Shown: positions 7,596-22,667 of the stretch, piece after piece
Numbering within the stretch: position 1 is the stretch's first letter
Layout of the letters: every line of letters starts with the position of its first letter
Origin: a virus
Strand: one strand, 5' to 3'
Virus record (IMG/VR): IMGVR_UViG_3300042463_000724
Coordinates: 1-25,932 of that record
Length of the DNA: 25,932 bases
The notes under the pieces: generated by a model
Databases searched by the model: none
Told to the model about the DNA's origin: nothing
What the model saw: only the letters and a program-made list of their open reading frames with translations
Program-made: the position numbers and the translations under genes

Positions 7596-8723
7596 TTATA
7601 GGTCTGGATCAACTCCAAATTTTCTTTTGTACTCAATTTTGTACTGGTCTATTTTTCCTTCTGTCCTTAAATTGATAAGGTCTTTTACTGAAATATCAGA
7701 TTCAGGCTGCTTTGCAAACTGCTTTGTTGGCGGGGTGTGCTTTCCTTTGATCTGGTTTTTGATGTTGACCAGTTCGGTGTCAACGCTTGCTTTTAAATCA
7801 GCGACAGGCTTAACGACCGCGCTCAAAGAGTCTTTTACCATTGTAGCGAACTCTTGGAATTGCGCCACTGTAACATATTTATCTTCAACCGGGGCGGCTT
7901 GGGCTGGTTTTACTTCGGTAATCTTTCCGCCCGCTACCACGATAGAAGAACCGTCCGCTAGTGCATGTGTGCCGTCTGGTGCGTTGGTTGAGCTGCCACG
8001 AAGTGCAGAAGCGTCTGCTGCGTCACTTGTTACGGTGCTTCCGTCAGCTAACTTTAATTCCATCGATGCCTTTACAGGCGCAGCAACTGGAGCAGGTGCT
8101 GGTAACATATTTTTGATTTCTGATTTGAAATCCTCAAACATTTTTTTGAAGTCCATATTTTTTTTGATTGTTGCGTACTCTTTTTGCGTAGATACTTTCT
8201 TTGTGGCAAAGCCCAACGCCACGGCCTGATCTGCTGTAAGGCTTGTTTCTTCGTTCATCAATGGCTCAATAGCTGCCTGATTGTTGCCAGTTTTGCCGAT
8301 GTAGAATTGCATCAATCGCTGTTTGGATTCCTCCAACTGGCTAGCGATTGACTTCATTACATTTGCATCGCCTGAAACATTTTGAACGAGCGGGTTATGT
8401 ATAAAGAATTCTTGTGAGTCGTTTACGATTCGTTGATCTCCAGCCAAAAATATCTTTGTGGCAATGCTGCCAACTATTCCGCGCTGAACGGTAGTGATTT
8501 TGTAGCCTTCCGCTTTTTTTGATTCGAGATAGTTATAGATTGAATCGCCAGTGTCTACATATCCACCCGGTGAGTCTATCACTACAACGATGTCTTTTTT
8601 TGATATGGGGATTGCACGAAATTGGGCGATGATGTCAACGAGTTCAACGCCTTTTAAAAATGCGCCTGTCTGCTCGTCTTGTCCACTTCCAATCTGGCCA
8701 ATGATGAAAATATCCCCTTGCAT
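7596..8723 (-). CDS. Head maturation protease (ClpP/S14 type) with C-terminal scaffold region
   Basis: A 375-residue protein. Residues 1 to about 175 are a ClpP-like serine protease: 'VVVIDSPGGYVDTG' (about 46-59), catalytic Ser86 in RGIVGSIATKIFLAG, catalytic His109 in EFFIHNP. The usual acid position near NEETSLTADQA (about 157-167) reads Glu rather than Asp, a change that deserves a check. Residues about 200-375 are charged and helical with low-complexity Ala/Pro segments (LPAPAPVAAPVK) and 'VAQFQEFATMVKDSLSAVV', as expected for an internal scaffold that is removed on maturation. The capsid gene follows 33 bp downstream. The ATG at 8723 lies just downstream of the divergent control region shared with the + strand cassette. 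Confidence 0.85.
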   Translation of the reverse strand: MQGDIFIIGQIGSGQDEQTGAFLKGVELVDIIAQFRAIPISKKDIVVVIDSPGGYVDTGDSIYNYLESKKAEGYKITTVQRGIVGSIATKIFLAGDQRIVNDSQEFFIHNPLVQNVSGDANVMKSIASQLEESKQRLMQFYIGKTGNNQAAIEPLMNEETSLTADQAVALGFATKKVSTQKEYATIKKNMDFKKMFEDFKSEIKNMLPAPAPVAAPVKASMELKLADGSTVTSDAADASALRGSSTNAPDGTHALADGSSIVVAGGKITEVKPAQAAPVEDKYVTVAQFQEFATMVKDSLSAVVKPVADLKASVDTELVNIKNQIKGKHTPPTKQFAKQPESDISVKDLINLRTEGKIDQYKIEYKRKFGVDPDL

Positions 8724-11690: not shown

Positions 11691-13517
11691 TTATTGAATT
11701 TTGAACAGTTCTACTTTTGTTATACTTCCAGCACCTTTTGTCCTTCCAGAATTATATTTATCTATTTTGTTTATCAGATAACAACTACCTGCATCAAAAA
11801 TTAGTTTGTGTGGATCGTAATTTGCAATGTCTGTTTCTGTCAGGTTATACTCATGTTTGCAAATCTTGTTTTTTTGCAGCGCAAATGATAATGATGGATA
11901 GAACTTTGAAATAAAGTATCTGAAAGAACTATCCTTTGGCTGACTTGCGTCTGCGTGGTAAGCCAATTTGTAATCAGTCCGTGGCGTTGAATCAAATGTT
12001 ATCGCTGCCTCGTTTGTTCTTGACTTTAATGTACCAATCATTAAAGGCGGTTCATCTTTTACGTCATCTATTCCGGTACTTGTTGAATCATACGCTGCAT
12101 AGCTCATTACTTCATAACCTGTACCAGTCCATCTTTTGACATTGGCAAAAACCGAAGTAAAGAAATCTTTTACGGCCTGTAATGCTGTGTTTGCAATTGA
12201 AAGGTTACCAGAGCCTAAAAATTTATCTTTGGCATCGTCATTGTGTAAAAAATAATTCGCTTGAGCGTAATTAGTTTTAAAATCAATAGCCGACTTTTTA
12301 CGGTTCACCCTTTTGTTTGTCCAGTCAACCGCGTTGCCAGTATCGTTGCAAATTTCTTCCAGTGTTTTTAAAATCAATGTATTGCCTTGCAGCTTGTAGA
12401 CTATGCCGAAGCGCACAAAGAAATCTTTTAGAATGTCTTTTAACGATGTCTTGCTTGCAAGTCGATTCCAATAAACATTTGTTCTTACCACATTTAACGT
12501 ATCAACTATCTCAACCTTGCAACTAGGCGCAAAGGTTATGATTGTAACATTGTCCGTTGGGAAACCAGCGTCTTTTATATACCTTATCCTGATTGTGATT
12601 GTCTGGCTTGTTATGAGCGTTTGGTCATTGAACTCATAAACAAATGTTCCTGATGTATTTGCCGTGATCGGTGTACCAGTCCCAAAAGTTCCAACGGTTA
12701 CACCAGCCGCCTCTACCACTACATTTGATGTTGACCCTCCGCCTTTTGTGAATGTAATTGACGTGAAATTTACAGTGATTTTTATATTTGCCCTGATGCC
12801 AAAAGGAACATTTTGCACGGGCATTACCATGTCCACCTGATTGCTGGTGTTAAAAAAATTGAATGTTGATGTGGTAGGTACGTTTGAATTGTTATACCCG
12901 TCTTTATATTTAAAAGCTGTGATAGGCGTACAAACCAAATCTGTAAGGTCTGAATTTGAAAGTATCGAAGCACTCAAAGAATATCCTGTAAGCTGTAATA
13001 TTTTTTGAATAAGTGTTCCATAAAAATAGCAAGGCAGAAAATAGTTTTGCTCGTAAATTGATGAGCGTCCCCAGTTCATGACGGCCGCAACAAAATTGCT
13101 TGTGTTTAATCTCGCAGCATCAATCGCACTTGCAGCCCATGAGCTATTGCCGAAATCAATGTTTGAAAGGTCTTTGCCTTCGATAAAAGAAATGATAGAA
13201 ACAAATGAATCGTAAATAACTATTGAATAATTCTCTCCATCGAATCCAATTATCTGACATTTACCGTTGATTGTTTCAATACCATTTTGAACGACCTTGC
13301 AATCTTGCAAAGCATATTGAAAAGTTCCGTTTGAATTTACCAGCTTTGCATTTTGAAAAACCCGATTGTTGCGTTCGGTGTCGCTTGCTTTTATTGTATT
13401 TGAAAACGAAGCGTAGTTTTTAGAAAGGTCGCCAATATCAACCCTTTGTATTGTCCAAGCTATTTTGGTGTTCGGGTCGAGGTCTATCAGTTGGCCGTCA
13501 ATGTAAACTACATCCAT
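11691..13517 (-). CDS. Tail tip/baseplate hub-like protein
   Basis: A 608-residue protein starting MDVVYIDGQLIDLDPNTKIA. Its first part ('IAWTIQRVDIGDLSKNYASF', 'SNTIKASDTERNNRVFQNAK') has the style of the Bacteroidota phage tail proteins that occupy the hub position. The middle contains a Ser/Thr/Val-rich beta insert (about residues 240-320), and the C-terminal part has 'LKDILKDFFVRFGIVYKLQG' plus 'LEEICNDTGNAVDWTNKRVN'. Hub proteins (T4 gp27/siphophage Tal type) close the tube and carry fibres. It lies directly upstream of the tape measure rather than downstream as in most siphoviruses. The role is inferred from size, style and neighbours. Confidence 0.6.
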   Translation of the reverse strand: MDVVYIDGQLIDLDPNTKIAWTIQRVDIGDLSKNYASFSNTIKASDTERNNRVFQNAKLVNSNGTFQYALQDCKVVQNGIETINGKCQIIGFDGENYSIVIYDSFVSIISFIEGKDLSNIDFGNSSWAASAIDAARLNTSNFVAAVMNWGRSSIYEQNYFLPCYFYGTLIQKILQLTGYSLSASILSNSDLTDLVCTPITAFKYKDGYNNSNVPTTSTFNFFNTSNQVDMVMPVQNVPFGIRANIKITVNFTSITFTKGGGSTSNVVVEAAGVTVGTFGTGTPITANTSGTFVYEFNDQTLITSQTITIRIRYIKDAGFPTDNVTIITFAPSCKVEIVDTLNVVRTNVYWNRLASKTSLKDILKDFFVRFGIVYKLQGNTLILKTLEEICNDTGNAVDWTNKRVNRKKSAIDFKTNYAQANYFLHNDDAKDKFLGSGNLSIANTALQAVKDFFTSVFANVKRWTGTGYEVMSYAAYDSTSTGIDDVKDEPPLMIGTLKSRTNEAAITFDSTPRTDYKLAYHADASQPKDSSFRYFISKFYPSLSFALQKNKICKHEYNLTETDIANYDPHKLIFDAGSCYLINKIDKYNSGRTKGAGSITKVELFKIQ

Positions 13518-18589: not shown

Positions 18590-19786
18590 TTATAAAACTC
18601 TTAATATTAATTTAGGTTTACTTCGCATAGCGTTGGCCAATGCCAGCGCACAAACTATATCGTCATGCATCCCTTCTGGTGCTGAATACTTCACCCCTCC
18701 ACGTGAATAGACGAACTCAAAGGATTCAAGTTCGTCCACCATTTCTTCTGTGATGTAAACTTCGCTTTTTTGTAGCGAAGATGCAAGCCCTTCCATTATT
18801 TCCTGTTTCGATTTGGAAGAAAAAGTAAAGCCCTCGGCCTCGCTGCATGACCGTGTAATGTTTTCAACGATAGGGTTTCCCACGCCCGTGCTGTCAATGT
18901 ATGCCGGGGTTCTGCCTAGTATGTCTATCACTCGCCTTGTGGTCTGATCCCAATCGGACTGCCAACGCGAGAAGTGGGCAACTTGACCATCTTCATCAAG
19001 GCCGATAACTACCGTCCAATCGGTTGATTTGGCAAGGTCAACCCCGAAGCATTCAACACTTTTTTTTGATAGTGGCCTAATGGCTTTCTTTATAAATTCA
19101 GTTCCGAACGGGTTCGCATTATCGTCCAACGCTTCGCCTAGATATAGCTGCCTAAATGCTTTATCGGGCAGGTCTATCTTTGCCTGTTCTACTTCTTCGC
19201 GTGAAAGTATTCCAGCGTCCACCGCGTCCCATGCTGTCAATTTAAAGTGTCGGTAGTCTTTAGTGCCAGATTTTGCACGGAGGCCCAAACGGTAGCCCCA
19301 ATTGTTTTTGCCGCGCACATTGCCGATAAACTTACACTTTCCTTTTGTGGCTGTCAATGTAGACCGCAAGGCAGTCCACGCCTCTTCACGTGCGCGGGTG
19401 AACTCATCAAATACGGCTGCGACTACGTCCTCACCGTAAAGGTTATCGGGTTTTTCGGCTGACTTAAACCAGATTGTATTTCCGTTAGGGCATTGAATAA
19501 ATAGCCCCGATTCATTGATACGGTAGTATTGCCGATAGTTGGCAATCGTCCGCCTCATTCTCGTGAAAGCAATCTTGGCCTGAGAATAGACAGGTGCAAC
19601 CCACCAGTAATTTTTGTTTGTTAATTCGGTCTTGTTTGCCTGTTCAAAAATCCACCAAAGATGGCTAAATGTTTTGCCTACCTTTGTGGAGGCTTCCGTG
19701 ACAGTAAACCTTTCAGGTGAATAAAGTATATCTTTCTGATAGGCTGTAAGATTTGGCGGATCTATTTCGATTATTGTTTCCTTCAT
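18590..19786 (-). CDS. terL: Terminase large subunit
   Basis: A 398-residue DNA-packaging motor. ATPase part: Walker A-like STKVGKT (33-39, Lys38), the adenine/Q-like N-terminal 'YQKDILYSPERF', Walker B 'VVAAVFDEF' (121-129, Asp127/Glu128), and a coupling region near 'FIGNVRGKNNWGYRL'. Nuclease part (RNase H-like): Asp250 in FGVDLAKSTDW, Asp298 in YIDSTGVG, and HDD at 374-376 in GMHDDIVCALALA. It pumps DNA into the prohead through the portal and cuts the concatemer. The ATG overlaps the TerS stop by ATGA, the usual TerS-TerL pairing. The length is a little shorter than many TerLs, but all motor and nuclease motifs are present. Confidence 0.93.
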   Translation of the reverse strand: MKETIIEIDPPNLTAYQKDILYSPERFTVTEASTKVGKTFSHLWWIFEQANKTELTNKNYWWVAPVYSQAKIAFTRMRRTIANYRQYYRINESGLFIQCPNGNTIWFKSAEKPDNLYGEDVVAAVFDEFTRAREEAWTALRSTLTATKGKCKFIGNVRGKNNWGYRLGLRAKSGTKDYRHFKLTAWDAVDAGILSREEVEQAKIDLPDKAFRQLYLGEALDDNANPFGTEFIKKAIRPLSKKSVECFGVDLAKSTDWTVVIGLDEDGQVAHFSRWQSDWDQTTRRVIDILGRTPAYIDSTGVGNPIVENITRSCSEAEGFTFSSKSKQEIMEGLASSLQKSEVYITEEMVDELESFEFVYSRGGVKYSAPEGMHDDIVCALALANAMRSKPKLILRVL

Positions 19787-20959: not shown

Positions 20960-21757
20960 TTATTTTTTTATCCACTCTTCGAAACTGGGCGAATTTGGCA
21001 GTATTTTGCCCGTCAGCAAATCCGTGTTTTCCAATGCCCAAATCCTTTTGGACTCGGCCAATGCTGCAAATTGCGGCAAATGATGGTTCTTTATCCAATC
21101 GTCAAAGTTGGTTGAATTTGGTAACCTTTTGCCGGTAATCATATCCGTATTTTCTAAAGCCCAAGTTCTTTTTGCCTCACCTAAAAAAATGTATTGCTGC
21201 GAAGGCTGTACGTATCCAGCCGAATGGCTCACCTTTTTTGGCTCTCTACATCCATATTCCTTTTCGTAGCCCTCGGGCAATGGGGCTACTTTTTTGAAGT
21301 CGGAAAGCGAATTGATGTAATCCTTTACCATTTTTTCGGTTTCTTGTGATATTTCTGGATTTGCTTCAATCTCGGCTTTTTCTGTTTTTTTGTTGTTGTG
21401 CGCCCGCTCCAATCGATCGGCTTCGCGCTCTAAGGCTATGCCCATCCACTCGCTGATGGTGTCGGGTGTAAGCCTCCAGTTCTTTTGCCCGGTGCTTGGT
21501 GGGCTTTCTAGGCACTTTACAAGCACATCGACAGGGTCGTATTGATAGCGGTCAATTGTGTCTATGGCAAGCAACAGCGCGGTTTCTTCGTCAAAGTTAG
21601 GCACTTGGTACATCTTAGCTATCTTAATCAACAGCGAGGCTATATGAGCCTCTAGCTGTGGCTTATTGGCCTGTTCCCGTAATACCGTGCCGCTCGTTAA
21701 TGAGGCGGGCAAGTTTGTCTTTGTCGAAATACTTTGGAGTGCCGTTTGTTTTTCCAT
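20960..21757 (-). CDS. Replication-region protein with C-terminal tandem repeat
   Basis: A 265-residue protein. Residues 1-110: 'STKTNLPASLTSGTVLREQA', then 'HIASLLIKIAKMYQVPNF' and 'ETALLLAIDTIDRYQYDPVD', a helical domain similar in style to phage replication/helicase-accessory proteins. The middle is charged and probably coiled. Residues about 194-224 and 235-265 are two copies of a 31-residue unit (E[AS]KR.WALENTD..TGK.LPNS..F..WIK) joined by about 10 residues. The start overlaps the DUF1376-like gene by 95 bp, a long overlap. It probably acts with that protein at the phage origin; this is inferred. Confidence 0.6.
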   Translation of the reverse strand: MEKQTALQSISTKTNLPASLTSGTVLREQANKPQLEAHIASLLIKIAKMYQVPNFDEETALLLAIDTIDRYQYDPVDVLVKCLESPPSTGQKNWRLTPDTISEWMGIALEREADRLERAHNNKKTEKAEIEANPEISQETEKMVKDYINSLSDFKKVAPLPEGYEKEYGCREPKKVSHSAGYVQPSQQYIFLGEAKRTWALENTDMITGKRLPNSTNFDDWIKNHHLPQFAALAESKRIWALENTDLLTGKILPNSPSFEEWIKK

Positions 21758-22343
21758 TGTTGTTTGATTTTATTGATAGCCATGTATTCAGTTTCTGCCG
21801 CCATTCCCACGATTCGCGTGGAGGGCTTGGTGAGGTGCTGTGATGATTCCAGCATTCATTCCATGCCTGTTTGATGTCCTTGCCTTTGTGTGTCATTTGC
21901 ATCTGTTCCAAGAAAATAGCATCGTTGAACAAATCTGATTCAATTTCACTTTTTGAAAGTTTTTTATTTGTATTTATAATTTCATTTTCAATTTCATTTT
22001 CAATTTCATTTTCCATATGTGAAACATATGTTTCTTTCTTTTTTGGTTTACCTTTTCTGTTTTTTCTTCTTGAATCGCTGTAATTTCTGCGTTTTTCAAT
22101 GCTTTCAGCAACCCATGCAATTTGATAGCCTCCAGAAATTTTTGTCAAAACCATTAACACCTCCGACTTTTGATCTGGATTGAGTCGTTTTGTGAAGAAG
22201 TTTAGTTGTTCCTGTGAAATACATATGTTGCGCATATGTTCACACATAATCCTATCATAAGCTGTCTGTGCTTGCTCACTCAAACATTGAGTGTCGCGAA
22301 GATAATCGCCCGGATAAAAAAGGAATGCTGGGTCTTTAGCCAT
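21663..22343 (-). CDS. DUF1376-like phage replication protein
   Basis: A 226-residue protein opening MAKDPAFLFYPGDYLRDTQC, the typical start of DUF1376/YdaU-type phage proteins ('DPAFLFY..D'), a winged-helix-like N-terminal domain with 'SEQAQTAYDRIMCEHMRNIC' and 'AWVAESIEKRRNYSDSRRKN'. A basic linker (RKGKPKKKE) leads to a low-complexity ENEIENEIENEI repeat (from three 12-bp DNA repeats), then a C-terminal part with 'DIKQAWNECWNHH' and 'SWEWRQKLNTWLS' that looks like a separate helical domain. Such proteins occupy the replication initiator slot in phages. The start overlaps the 64-residue gene by 8 bp. Confidence 0.7.
   Translation of the reverse strand: MAKDPAFLFYPGDYLRDTQCLSEQAQTAYDRIMCEHMRNICISQEQLNFFTKRLNPDQKSEVLMVLTKISGGYQIAWVAESIEKRRNYSDSRRKNRKGKPKKKETYVSHMENEIENEIENEIINTNKKLSKSEIESDLFNDAIFLEQMQMTHKGKDIKQAWNECWNHHSTSPSPPRESWEWRQKLNTWLSIKSNNNGKTNGTPKYFDKDKLARLINERHGITGTGQ
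21979..22014. repeat. Three 12-bp tandem repeats inside a coding region
   Basis: ATTTCATTTTCA occurs three times in a row (the third copy ends CC), encoding the (ENEI)n stretch of the DUF1376-like protein on the - strand. Twelve-base units keep the frame, so copy number can change without breaking the gene. It likely lengthens or shortens a flexible linker. Confidence 0.8.
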
Positions 22344-22530
22344 TGGATTGCGTAGGTTCTATTTCTCTGATAAAGTCACTTAACTGGTCTCTAAGGTCAA
22401 CTGCATCTTCATGTGATAGCCCAAAACAAGCTTCATTATCTTTCTCTGTAATTGATAGTTCGATTTGATTATCGACTACTGACATTTCTAATACAAACCC
22501 AAATTCATCTTCGTATCTTCTTATTCTCAT
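22336..22530 (-). CDS. Small acidic protein, unknown, directly after a terminator-like hairpin
   Basis: A 64-residue protein starting MRIRRYEDEFGFVLEMSVVD, then 'QIELSITEKDNEACFGLSHE' and 'DAVDLRDQLSDFIREIEP'. It has two strands followed by an acidic helix. The ATG lies immediately after the T-rich tail of the hairpin at 22542-22581, so its transcription must read through that signal from the promoter at 22637-22667 or from further upstream. The function is unknown. Confidence 0.6.
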   Translation of the reverse strand: MRIRRYEDEFGFVLEMSVVDNQIELSITEKDNEACFGLSHEDAVDLRDQLSDFIREIEPTQSNG

Positions 22531-22632
22531 AAAAACAAAAATCCCAATGAGTTTGGCCGTGCGAAGCCGCCCCCATTGGGACTTGTTAAAGTTTTATTCA
22601 ACGGTCGCACCCGTTATGCCGATCCTTTCGGC
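22531..22632 (-). ncRNA. Structured RNA/attenuator leader with predicted kissing loops
   Basis: From the predicted start near 22630 the RNA has three hairpins: GCCGA-AAGGA-TCGGC (22632-22618), AACGG-GTGCGA-CCGTT (22615-22600), and an 8-bp stem TCCCAATG/CATTGGGA (22581-22542) topped by GGC-TTCGCACG-GCC and followed by TTTTTGTTTTT. The six loop bases GTGCGA of hairpin 2 are exactly complementary to TCGCAC in the loop of hairpin 3, so the two could form a 6-bp kissing complex. It could be a free RNA of about 100 nt ending at its own terminator, or a switch controlling readthrough into the gene at 22530. No known RNA family is recognised. Confidence 0.6.
22542..22581 (-). terminator. Intrinsic terminator-like hairpin abutting a start codon
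   Basis: TCCCAATG (22581-22574) pairs with CATTGGGA (22549-22542), with a 3-bp inner stem, followed by TTTTTGTTTTT (22541-22531) and then the ATG at 22530. It has the form of a Rho-independent terminator. Its closeness to the start codon suggests attenuation as well as end-of-RNA function. Confidence 0.6.
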
Positions 22633-22636
22633 TTTA

Positions 22637-22667
22637 CAAAAATACTAATAAATCAATCAATTGCAAA
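22637..22667 (-). promoter_or_regulatory. Bacteroidota-type promoter for the structured RNA
   Basis: On the - strand TTTG (22667-22664), 19-nt spacer, TATTTTTG (22644-22637): an exact TTTG-19-TAnnTTTG match. The expected start is about 7 nt further, near 22630, exactly at the first hairpin of the RNA. Confidence 0.7.

Follow-up and report, generated by a model that had tools for sequence, protein, structure and literature searches.

Plasmid rep attenuators of the pT181/pIP501 type combine loop-loop pairing with a terminator before a replication gene, and the c4 antisense RNA of phages P1, P7 and N15, whose loops are complementary to other parts of its own transcript, acts by blocking icd/ant translation. 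In P4, the CI RNA pairs with seqA and seqC, stopping transcription of the replication operon prematurely (PMC4825925), and we re-found the complementary segments at ~8652, 8464 and 8385. A terminated short prophage leader is also represented by IsrK of Gifsy-1, which occurs as a readthrough mRNA as well, contains a small leader ORF and pairs both in cis and in trans (PMC4825925). Here we describe an element that resembles an RNA brake on phage genes and appears to be new, the literature searched, which was largely open-access, giving no earlier description. The analogy to P4 CI RNA or to the plasmid attenuators would be one of mechanism, as proposed below.

The likeness to P4 lies in complementary segments within a replication-operon leader, which we found in the window (the whole 25,932-base IMG/VR virus record analysed here) and in its relatives. 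P4, however, has three segments (A, B and C) over ~270 nt and a processed CI RNA, whereas here there is one pair of segments, spaced ~45 nt apart with the second inside a terminator loop, and no sequence similarity to the P4 region. No seqB-like segment with two targets was found, each element having two segments, and looking for a third complementary site in the window gave no 12-nt direct or inverted match, a 6-nt site lying below detection. The element shares both features of the pT181/pIP501 attenuators, but they rely on a separate counter-transcript, whereas this element has its antisense segment in the terminator loop of the same strand. It resembles IsrK as a putative terminated short phage leader with a small ORF, although the two have no sequence relation, and it resembles c4 in its self-complementary loops, although c4 acts on translation of icd/ant. 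Rfam at its gathering threshold returned no match in the window and 20 related loci, c4 included, and IsrK included as far as Rfam covers it; at E<=10 the window region returned only weak, unrelated and unconvincing sub-threshold matches. The initial annotation, made from the window's letters, had likewise recognised no known RNA family.

Within the window, the parts of the element and the genes that follow are these:

22637..22667, minus strand: promoter TTTG-N19-TATTTTTG of the Bacteroidota type, exact pattern match (TTTG box 22667-22664; TATTTTTG box 22644-22637)
22618..22632, minus strand: first hairpin, GCCGA-AAGGA-TCGGC, at the expected 5' end (from the fold)
22600..22615, minus strand: hairpin H1, AACGG-GTGCGA-CCGTT, presenting a kissing loop (from the fold)
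22605..22610, minus strand: kissing loop 1, GTGCGA, complement of 22559-22564
22542..22581, minus strand: terminator hairpin with outer stem TCCCAATG/CATTGGGA (arms 22581-22574 and 22549-22542) and an inner GGC/GCC hairpin (from the fold)
22559..22564, minus strand: kissing loop 2, TCGCAC (from the sequence)
22531..22541, minus strand: T tail TTTTTGTTTTT (from the sequence), its last base adjoining the ATG at 22530
22527..22601, minus strand: candidate leader ORF MNKTLTSPNGGGFARPNSLGFLFL, running through the terminator (reading frame)
22336..22530, minus strand: downstream gene of 64 aa (ORF list)
21663..22343, minus strand: replication-type gene of 226 aa (M-KDPAFLFYPGDYLRDTQ...), with 43 viral relatives

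The promoter, hairpins, GTGCGA/TCGCAC loop pair and T-tailed stem before the ATG, as proposed in the initial annotation, were thus all located where it had placed them. TCGCAC sits within the possible inner hairpin GGC-TTCGCACG-GCC of the terminator, and its pairing with kissing loop 1, taken as an isolated duplex, is worth -7.9 kcal/mol. The leader ORF has a TTG start at 22601, an in-frame GTG at 22610 and no ATG start, and its stop overlaps the downstream ATG. The 64-aa product had no family match and no relatives in the search, and the 226-aa product matched no Pfam family at cut-off, its replication role being suggested by the neighbours in its block. The window RNA folds to -44 kcal/mol, against -30.9 +/- 3.6 kcal/mol in dinucleotide shuffles (z -3.64; 0/200 as good). 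Two copies of the promoter pattern lie in the window where 1.85 are expected, a chance frequency for which the consensus was dropped as stand-alone evidence. When partners were swapped with other loci, the 6-nt complement by itself came to p ~0.08, and GTGCGA/TCGCAC tied with AAGCCG/CGGCTT. As promoter pattern and complement are each near chance, the parts are suggestive, and the kissing claim is weak from the window sequence by itself.

The kissing claim becomes strong in sequence terms once relatives are included. The replication-type protein has its 43 relatives among viral contigs, and the same architecture, in other letters, lies upstream of many of them. Defining the element as a 5' segment or loop, a T-tailed hairpin with a complementary loop and a gene start just downstream, we found it in the window and in more than 30 further cases, including 12 matches from an automatic loop-loop scan that had both promoter box and gene start. 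Complements between segment and terminator loop were GGGTCGCAG/CTGCGACCC in L009, CTGACAG/CTGTCAG in L012, GTGTGAC/GTCACAC in L014, GACCATCAC/GTGATGGTC in L028, CCCGCCAAAGG/CCTTTGGCGGG in L036, GGTCTCAC/GTGAGACC in L037, GACAACCACGA/TCGTGGTTGTC in L040, GTGTCCG/CGGACAC in L044 and GTCGGAT/ATCCGAC in L063, with a 14-nt match in L032. The element takes two forms, one with both segments in hairpin loops of ~6-8 nt (the window, L003, L009, L044, L063, L102, L115 and others) and one in which the upstream segment is left unpaired, close to where the RNA is expected to begin (L017, L023, L028, L036, L040). The first hairpin of the window (22618..22632) is not constant among relatives, while counterparts of H1 bear other loops and counterparts of the terminator hairpin have the inner hairpin and complementary loop. 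Promoters of the TAnnTTTG type recur before the element, with sigma70-like TTGACA/TATAAT-like promoters instead in L032, L033 and L036 (judged by eye), and some elements have weak T tails. Several relatives of the rep gene and most genome-contig loci have no such leader directly upstream.

Cultured carriers were reached via the helicase gene of another relative and include hattifnatt9-1 with three elements and FCV-1 with two; 79 records of Flavobacterium (F. columnare phages for the most part) and 46 of the LMO-host group contain a related region. Among named phages, blastn with the window region gave no match, and neither did tblastn with the rep-like protein among named phages and plasmids. 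Homology searches and Rfam miss the element because its pairing is conserved and its sequence is not. As far as these predictions reach, the kissing-loop leader is carried by many phages, mostly of Bacteroidota.

Complementarity was evaluated in several sets of loci. Among 77 T-tailed hairpins chosen by stem strength only, own matches between loop and upstream sequence beat swapped partners in L009, L015, L017, L023, L028, L029, L032, L037, L040 and L044, and the best matches lay nearly all 28-41 nt upstream of the stem. In sets of promoter, hairpin and gene selected blind to complementarity, a permutation test gave 223 against 165 +/- 9.4, a value reached in 0/20,000 permutations. A hand-collected catalogue placed 19 of 26 own pairs within the top 5% of swapped pairs, but these 26 elements were gathered partly via complementarity, so the weight rests on the 77-hairpin test and the blind promoter/hairpin/gene test. 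The automatic scan went through 771 kb of sequence, seeking pairs of hairpin loops complementary to each other with the second loop enclosed by a T-tailed stem, and returned 205 matches, 15 with TAnnTTTG upstream; a gene start followed within 45 nt (<=45 nt) in 12 of these 15 versus 18 of the 190 without the box (Fisher p 3.6e-9, somewhat flattering because the 12 include the near-duplicate pairs L117/L118 and L003/L007).

Compensatory changes, which the initial annotation had suggested seeking in related phages, were found as well. Six homologous leaders from cultured Flavobacterium phages share an 8-bp kiss in which 5/8 pairs have changed on both sides, with 47/48 cells paired and the one lost pair in FCOV-S1, while slid versions of the kiss, used as a control, fail in the same leaders. 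The alleles read GTGAGACG/CGTCTCAC in hattifnatt, GTGGAACG/CGTTCCAC in snusmum, GTGAGAAG/CTTCTCAC in morran and GTAGAGAG/CTCTCTAC in FCV-1, and cross-pairing the hattifnatt and snusmum loops reduces the pairing energy from ~-11.5 to ~-4.6 kcal/mol. Between L017 and L023 the flanks and gene start match, the element between them is replaced, and a 9-bp complement is retained. L098, from the window's closest relative by terminase (90%), shares with L051 a common leader with two compensated kissing pairs (GCTAGA/TCTAGC vs GCTAAC/GTTAGC), and the two leaders precede different replication-type genes. The predicted pairing is therefore kept while its letters vary between phages, and loops that change without keeping complementarity, which had been named as grounds for giving up the idea, are contrary to what more than 30 elements in other phages show. 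Comparative evidence thus backs the proposal that promoter, loop-loop pair and terminator form one structured unit.

Evaluating the leaders for reading frames revealed that many elements have a start codon in or next to the pairing segment, with an ORF that crosses the terminator to the downstream start. In the 26-element catalogue, an ATG-start ORF spanning the terminator was present in 14 cases versus 5.5 expected (0/2,000 shuffles), and an ATG at the pairing segment in 14 versus 7.1 expected (p 0.0005); the leader ORFs of L098 and L051 keep their frame across indels. A conserved peptide was rejected as the meaning of this ORF, the substitutions between L017 and L029 being all amino-acid-changing while the stem is compensated (judged by eye).

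What the DNA itself shows are the parts, a complementarity kept through compensatory changes, the position in front of genes and the leader-ORF enrichment; from these we infer transcription, termination, readthrough, action in cis or trans and a role of translation. With moderate confidence, we read the element as a phage leader RNA that would work as a self-antisense attenuator of transcription. The leader runs from the promoter straight into the terminator and the gene, so the gene would be reached from this promoter only by readthrough, and for that reason an attenuator is the simplest reading. RNA polymerase would start just upstream and make ~100 nt of RNA, which would fold into a 5' hairpin (a free 5' segment in some relatives) and a terminator hairpin whose inner loop would present the exact complement of the 5' loop. 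Pairing of these loops in cis would mask the 5' segment and so maintain or promote the off state; in many elements this segment contains or touches the start codon of the leader ORF, a potential ribosome entry point. Ribosomes entering before pairing would run into the terminator and allow the polymerase to read through. Terminated leaders, as they accumulate, could possibly pair in trans with other nascent leaders and bring about the off state. Against an attenuator, the kiss in the window is just 6 bp and the window ORF would have to begin at TTG or GTG. Translation through the terminator cannot be how all the elements work, since in hattifnatt, morran and FCV-1 a stop comes almost directly after the ATG (ATGAAGTGA, ATGAAGTAG) and no ORF spans the terminator, the FCV-1/hattifnatt subgroup standing outside the 26-element ORF count. 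In E. coli, ribosomes repress terminators near stop codons, and a terminator lying within the first 100 bp of a coding sequence can remain active (PMC4824070), the latter weakening the translation step for short leader ORFs.

A broader form of this reading, which we put forward tentatively and regard as doubtful, is that each terminated leader serves as an antisense regulator of its own kind via a hypervariable kissing loop. Such regulators would be widespread in phages and would control gene dosage and perhaps the specificity of superinfection, the loop alleles behaving like immunity types in virulent and temperate phages alike. Since some of the cultured Flavobacterium phages with the element are virulent (PMC7077304), its general role cannot be lysogenic immunity.

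Cis pairing alone would account for the covariation, without any trans action, and this suits a constitutive 5' UTR whose pseudoknot shields the 5' end of the RNA or reinforces a fixed partial terminator, keeping dosage-sensitive genes low with no switch involved. The pairing segment is indeed often at or near the expected RNA 5' end, but the enriched leader ORFs and the start codons at the segment are not what simple stabilisation predicts, and we consider such a UTR unlikely. Elements within one genome (L009, hattifnatt, FCV-1) have differing kissing sequences, which cis pairing neither needs nor forbids.

The initial annotation had left the choice between an attenuator and a free sRNA open, and here the attenuator fits the anatomy better, its function being itself read from that anatomy. 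Between the end of the terminator and the ATG there are usually a few to 25 nt, and because nearly every element has a co-directional gene starting a few to ~50 nt beyond its terminator, we prefer the attenuator. A free phage sRNA would act in trans on host or phage mRNA, with the kiss as an internal lock or stabiliser and the position beside a gene a consequence of a compact genome; it would explain the element's own promoter, compact fold and terminator, as well as the gene starts ~50 nt past the terminator in hattifnatt and morran. It is nevertheless quite unlikely, considering that the element is nearly always directly upstream of a co-directional gene, that there is no conserved seed and the exposed loops differ between near-identical phages, and that no 12-nt match to the element lies elsewhere in the window.

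Placement at replication genes, also part of the original proposal, held in that many rep-like genes lie downstream of the element, but helicase and HNH genes do so too. Judging gene types from sequence and record annotation, we found a SNF2-type helicase downstream in L003, L099, L117 and hattifnatt, another replication-type protein in L115, and HNH/NUMOD endonucleases in L009 (minus strand), hattifnatt (gp041) and FCV-1. Among the Muminvirus/Lillamyvirus phages read, the GTGGAACG allele (snusmum, mumin, mymlan) is followed by a helicase/VapE-type module, and the GTGAGACG or GTGAGAAG allele (hattifnatt, tooticki, morran) by a primase module. Plasmid copy-control RNAs have kissing loops of a similar kind to the 7-8 nt loops seen here, and this resemblance, together with the frequent site at the start of the replication block, would fit, in place of a gene switch, a replication element with ColE1-type control (a primer RNA or origin-proximal single-strand hairpins). 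Elements before HNH endonucleases in L009, FCV-1 and hattifnatt, and up to three elements in one phage, make this improbable. Two mutually complementary loops of freely changing sequence could also belong to an RNA assembling into rings by intermolecular loop-loop pairing, like phi29 packaging RNA, yet the terminator and coupling to gene starts would be unexpected, the terminase is of an ordinary type (phrog_2) and several elements with different loops occur per genome, so that we regard it as very improbable. An HDV-like nested double-pseudoknot ribozyme was dropped for want of a constant core around the pairing segments (judged by eye), and an HNH-associated guide RNA (HEARO/omega type) was dropped as well, there being no Rfam match and the same leader type standing before unrelated genes.

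Gene control in Bacteroidota phages is poorly known, and the putative attenuator offers a recognisable RNA switch candidate before replication, helicase and endonuclease genes that is present in growable Flavobacterium phages (hattifnatt9-1, snusmum, FCV-1, FCL-2). Trans action and specificity can be tested directly with pairs of natural alleles whose main difference is the kiss (hattifnatt vs snusmum; L017 vs L023), and such pairs could supply orthogonal RNA switches for Bacteroidota; orthogonal attenuator families engineered from plasmid antisense systems are outlined in PMC3753616.

Several minor observations accompany the element. Just before its promoter in the window, a stretch at 22732-22670 (minus) resembles a tRNA 3' half, with a T-arm GGGGTTCGATTCCCCG and then TTTACTCCACTA; it is possibly an att core or a tRNA remnant, ARAGORN called no tRNA there, and in the relatives read we noticed no such stretch at the corresponding position. 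The window's remaining exact match to the promoter pattern, TTTG-19-TATATTTG at 20941-20911 (minus), is followed by a second tRNA-like T-arm (ACAGGTTCGAATCCTGT CATGACTACA; 20941-20806, minus) just before a small ORF start, with no terminator and no kissing pair seen in that region. A second element of L009, on its minus strand at ~8600-8712 in reverse-complement coordinates, has a 7-nt kiss GGACGAG/CTCGTCC upstream of a NUMOD4-type HNH gene, and elements before HNH/NUMOD genes lie at ~13300-13398 in hattifnatt9-1 (L122) and ~27300-27391 in FCV-1 (L125). Small 'hypothetical protein' genes are annotated over or beside the leader in morran and snusmum (L127 3023-3166, L123 14631-14726, L128 292-387) and are probably call artefacts. 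In snusmum6-1 (L123), positions 18780-19060 between the VapE-like and VRR-NUC genes hold many short GGTTACCT/AGGTAACC repeats, which look like an iteron or origin region.
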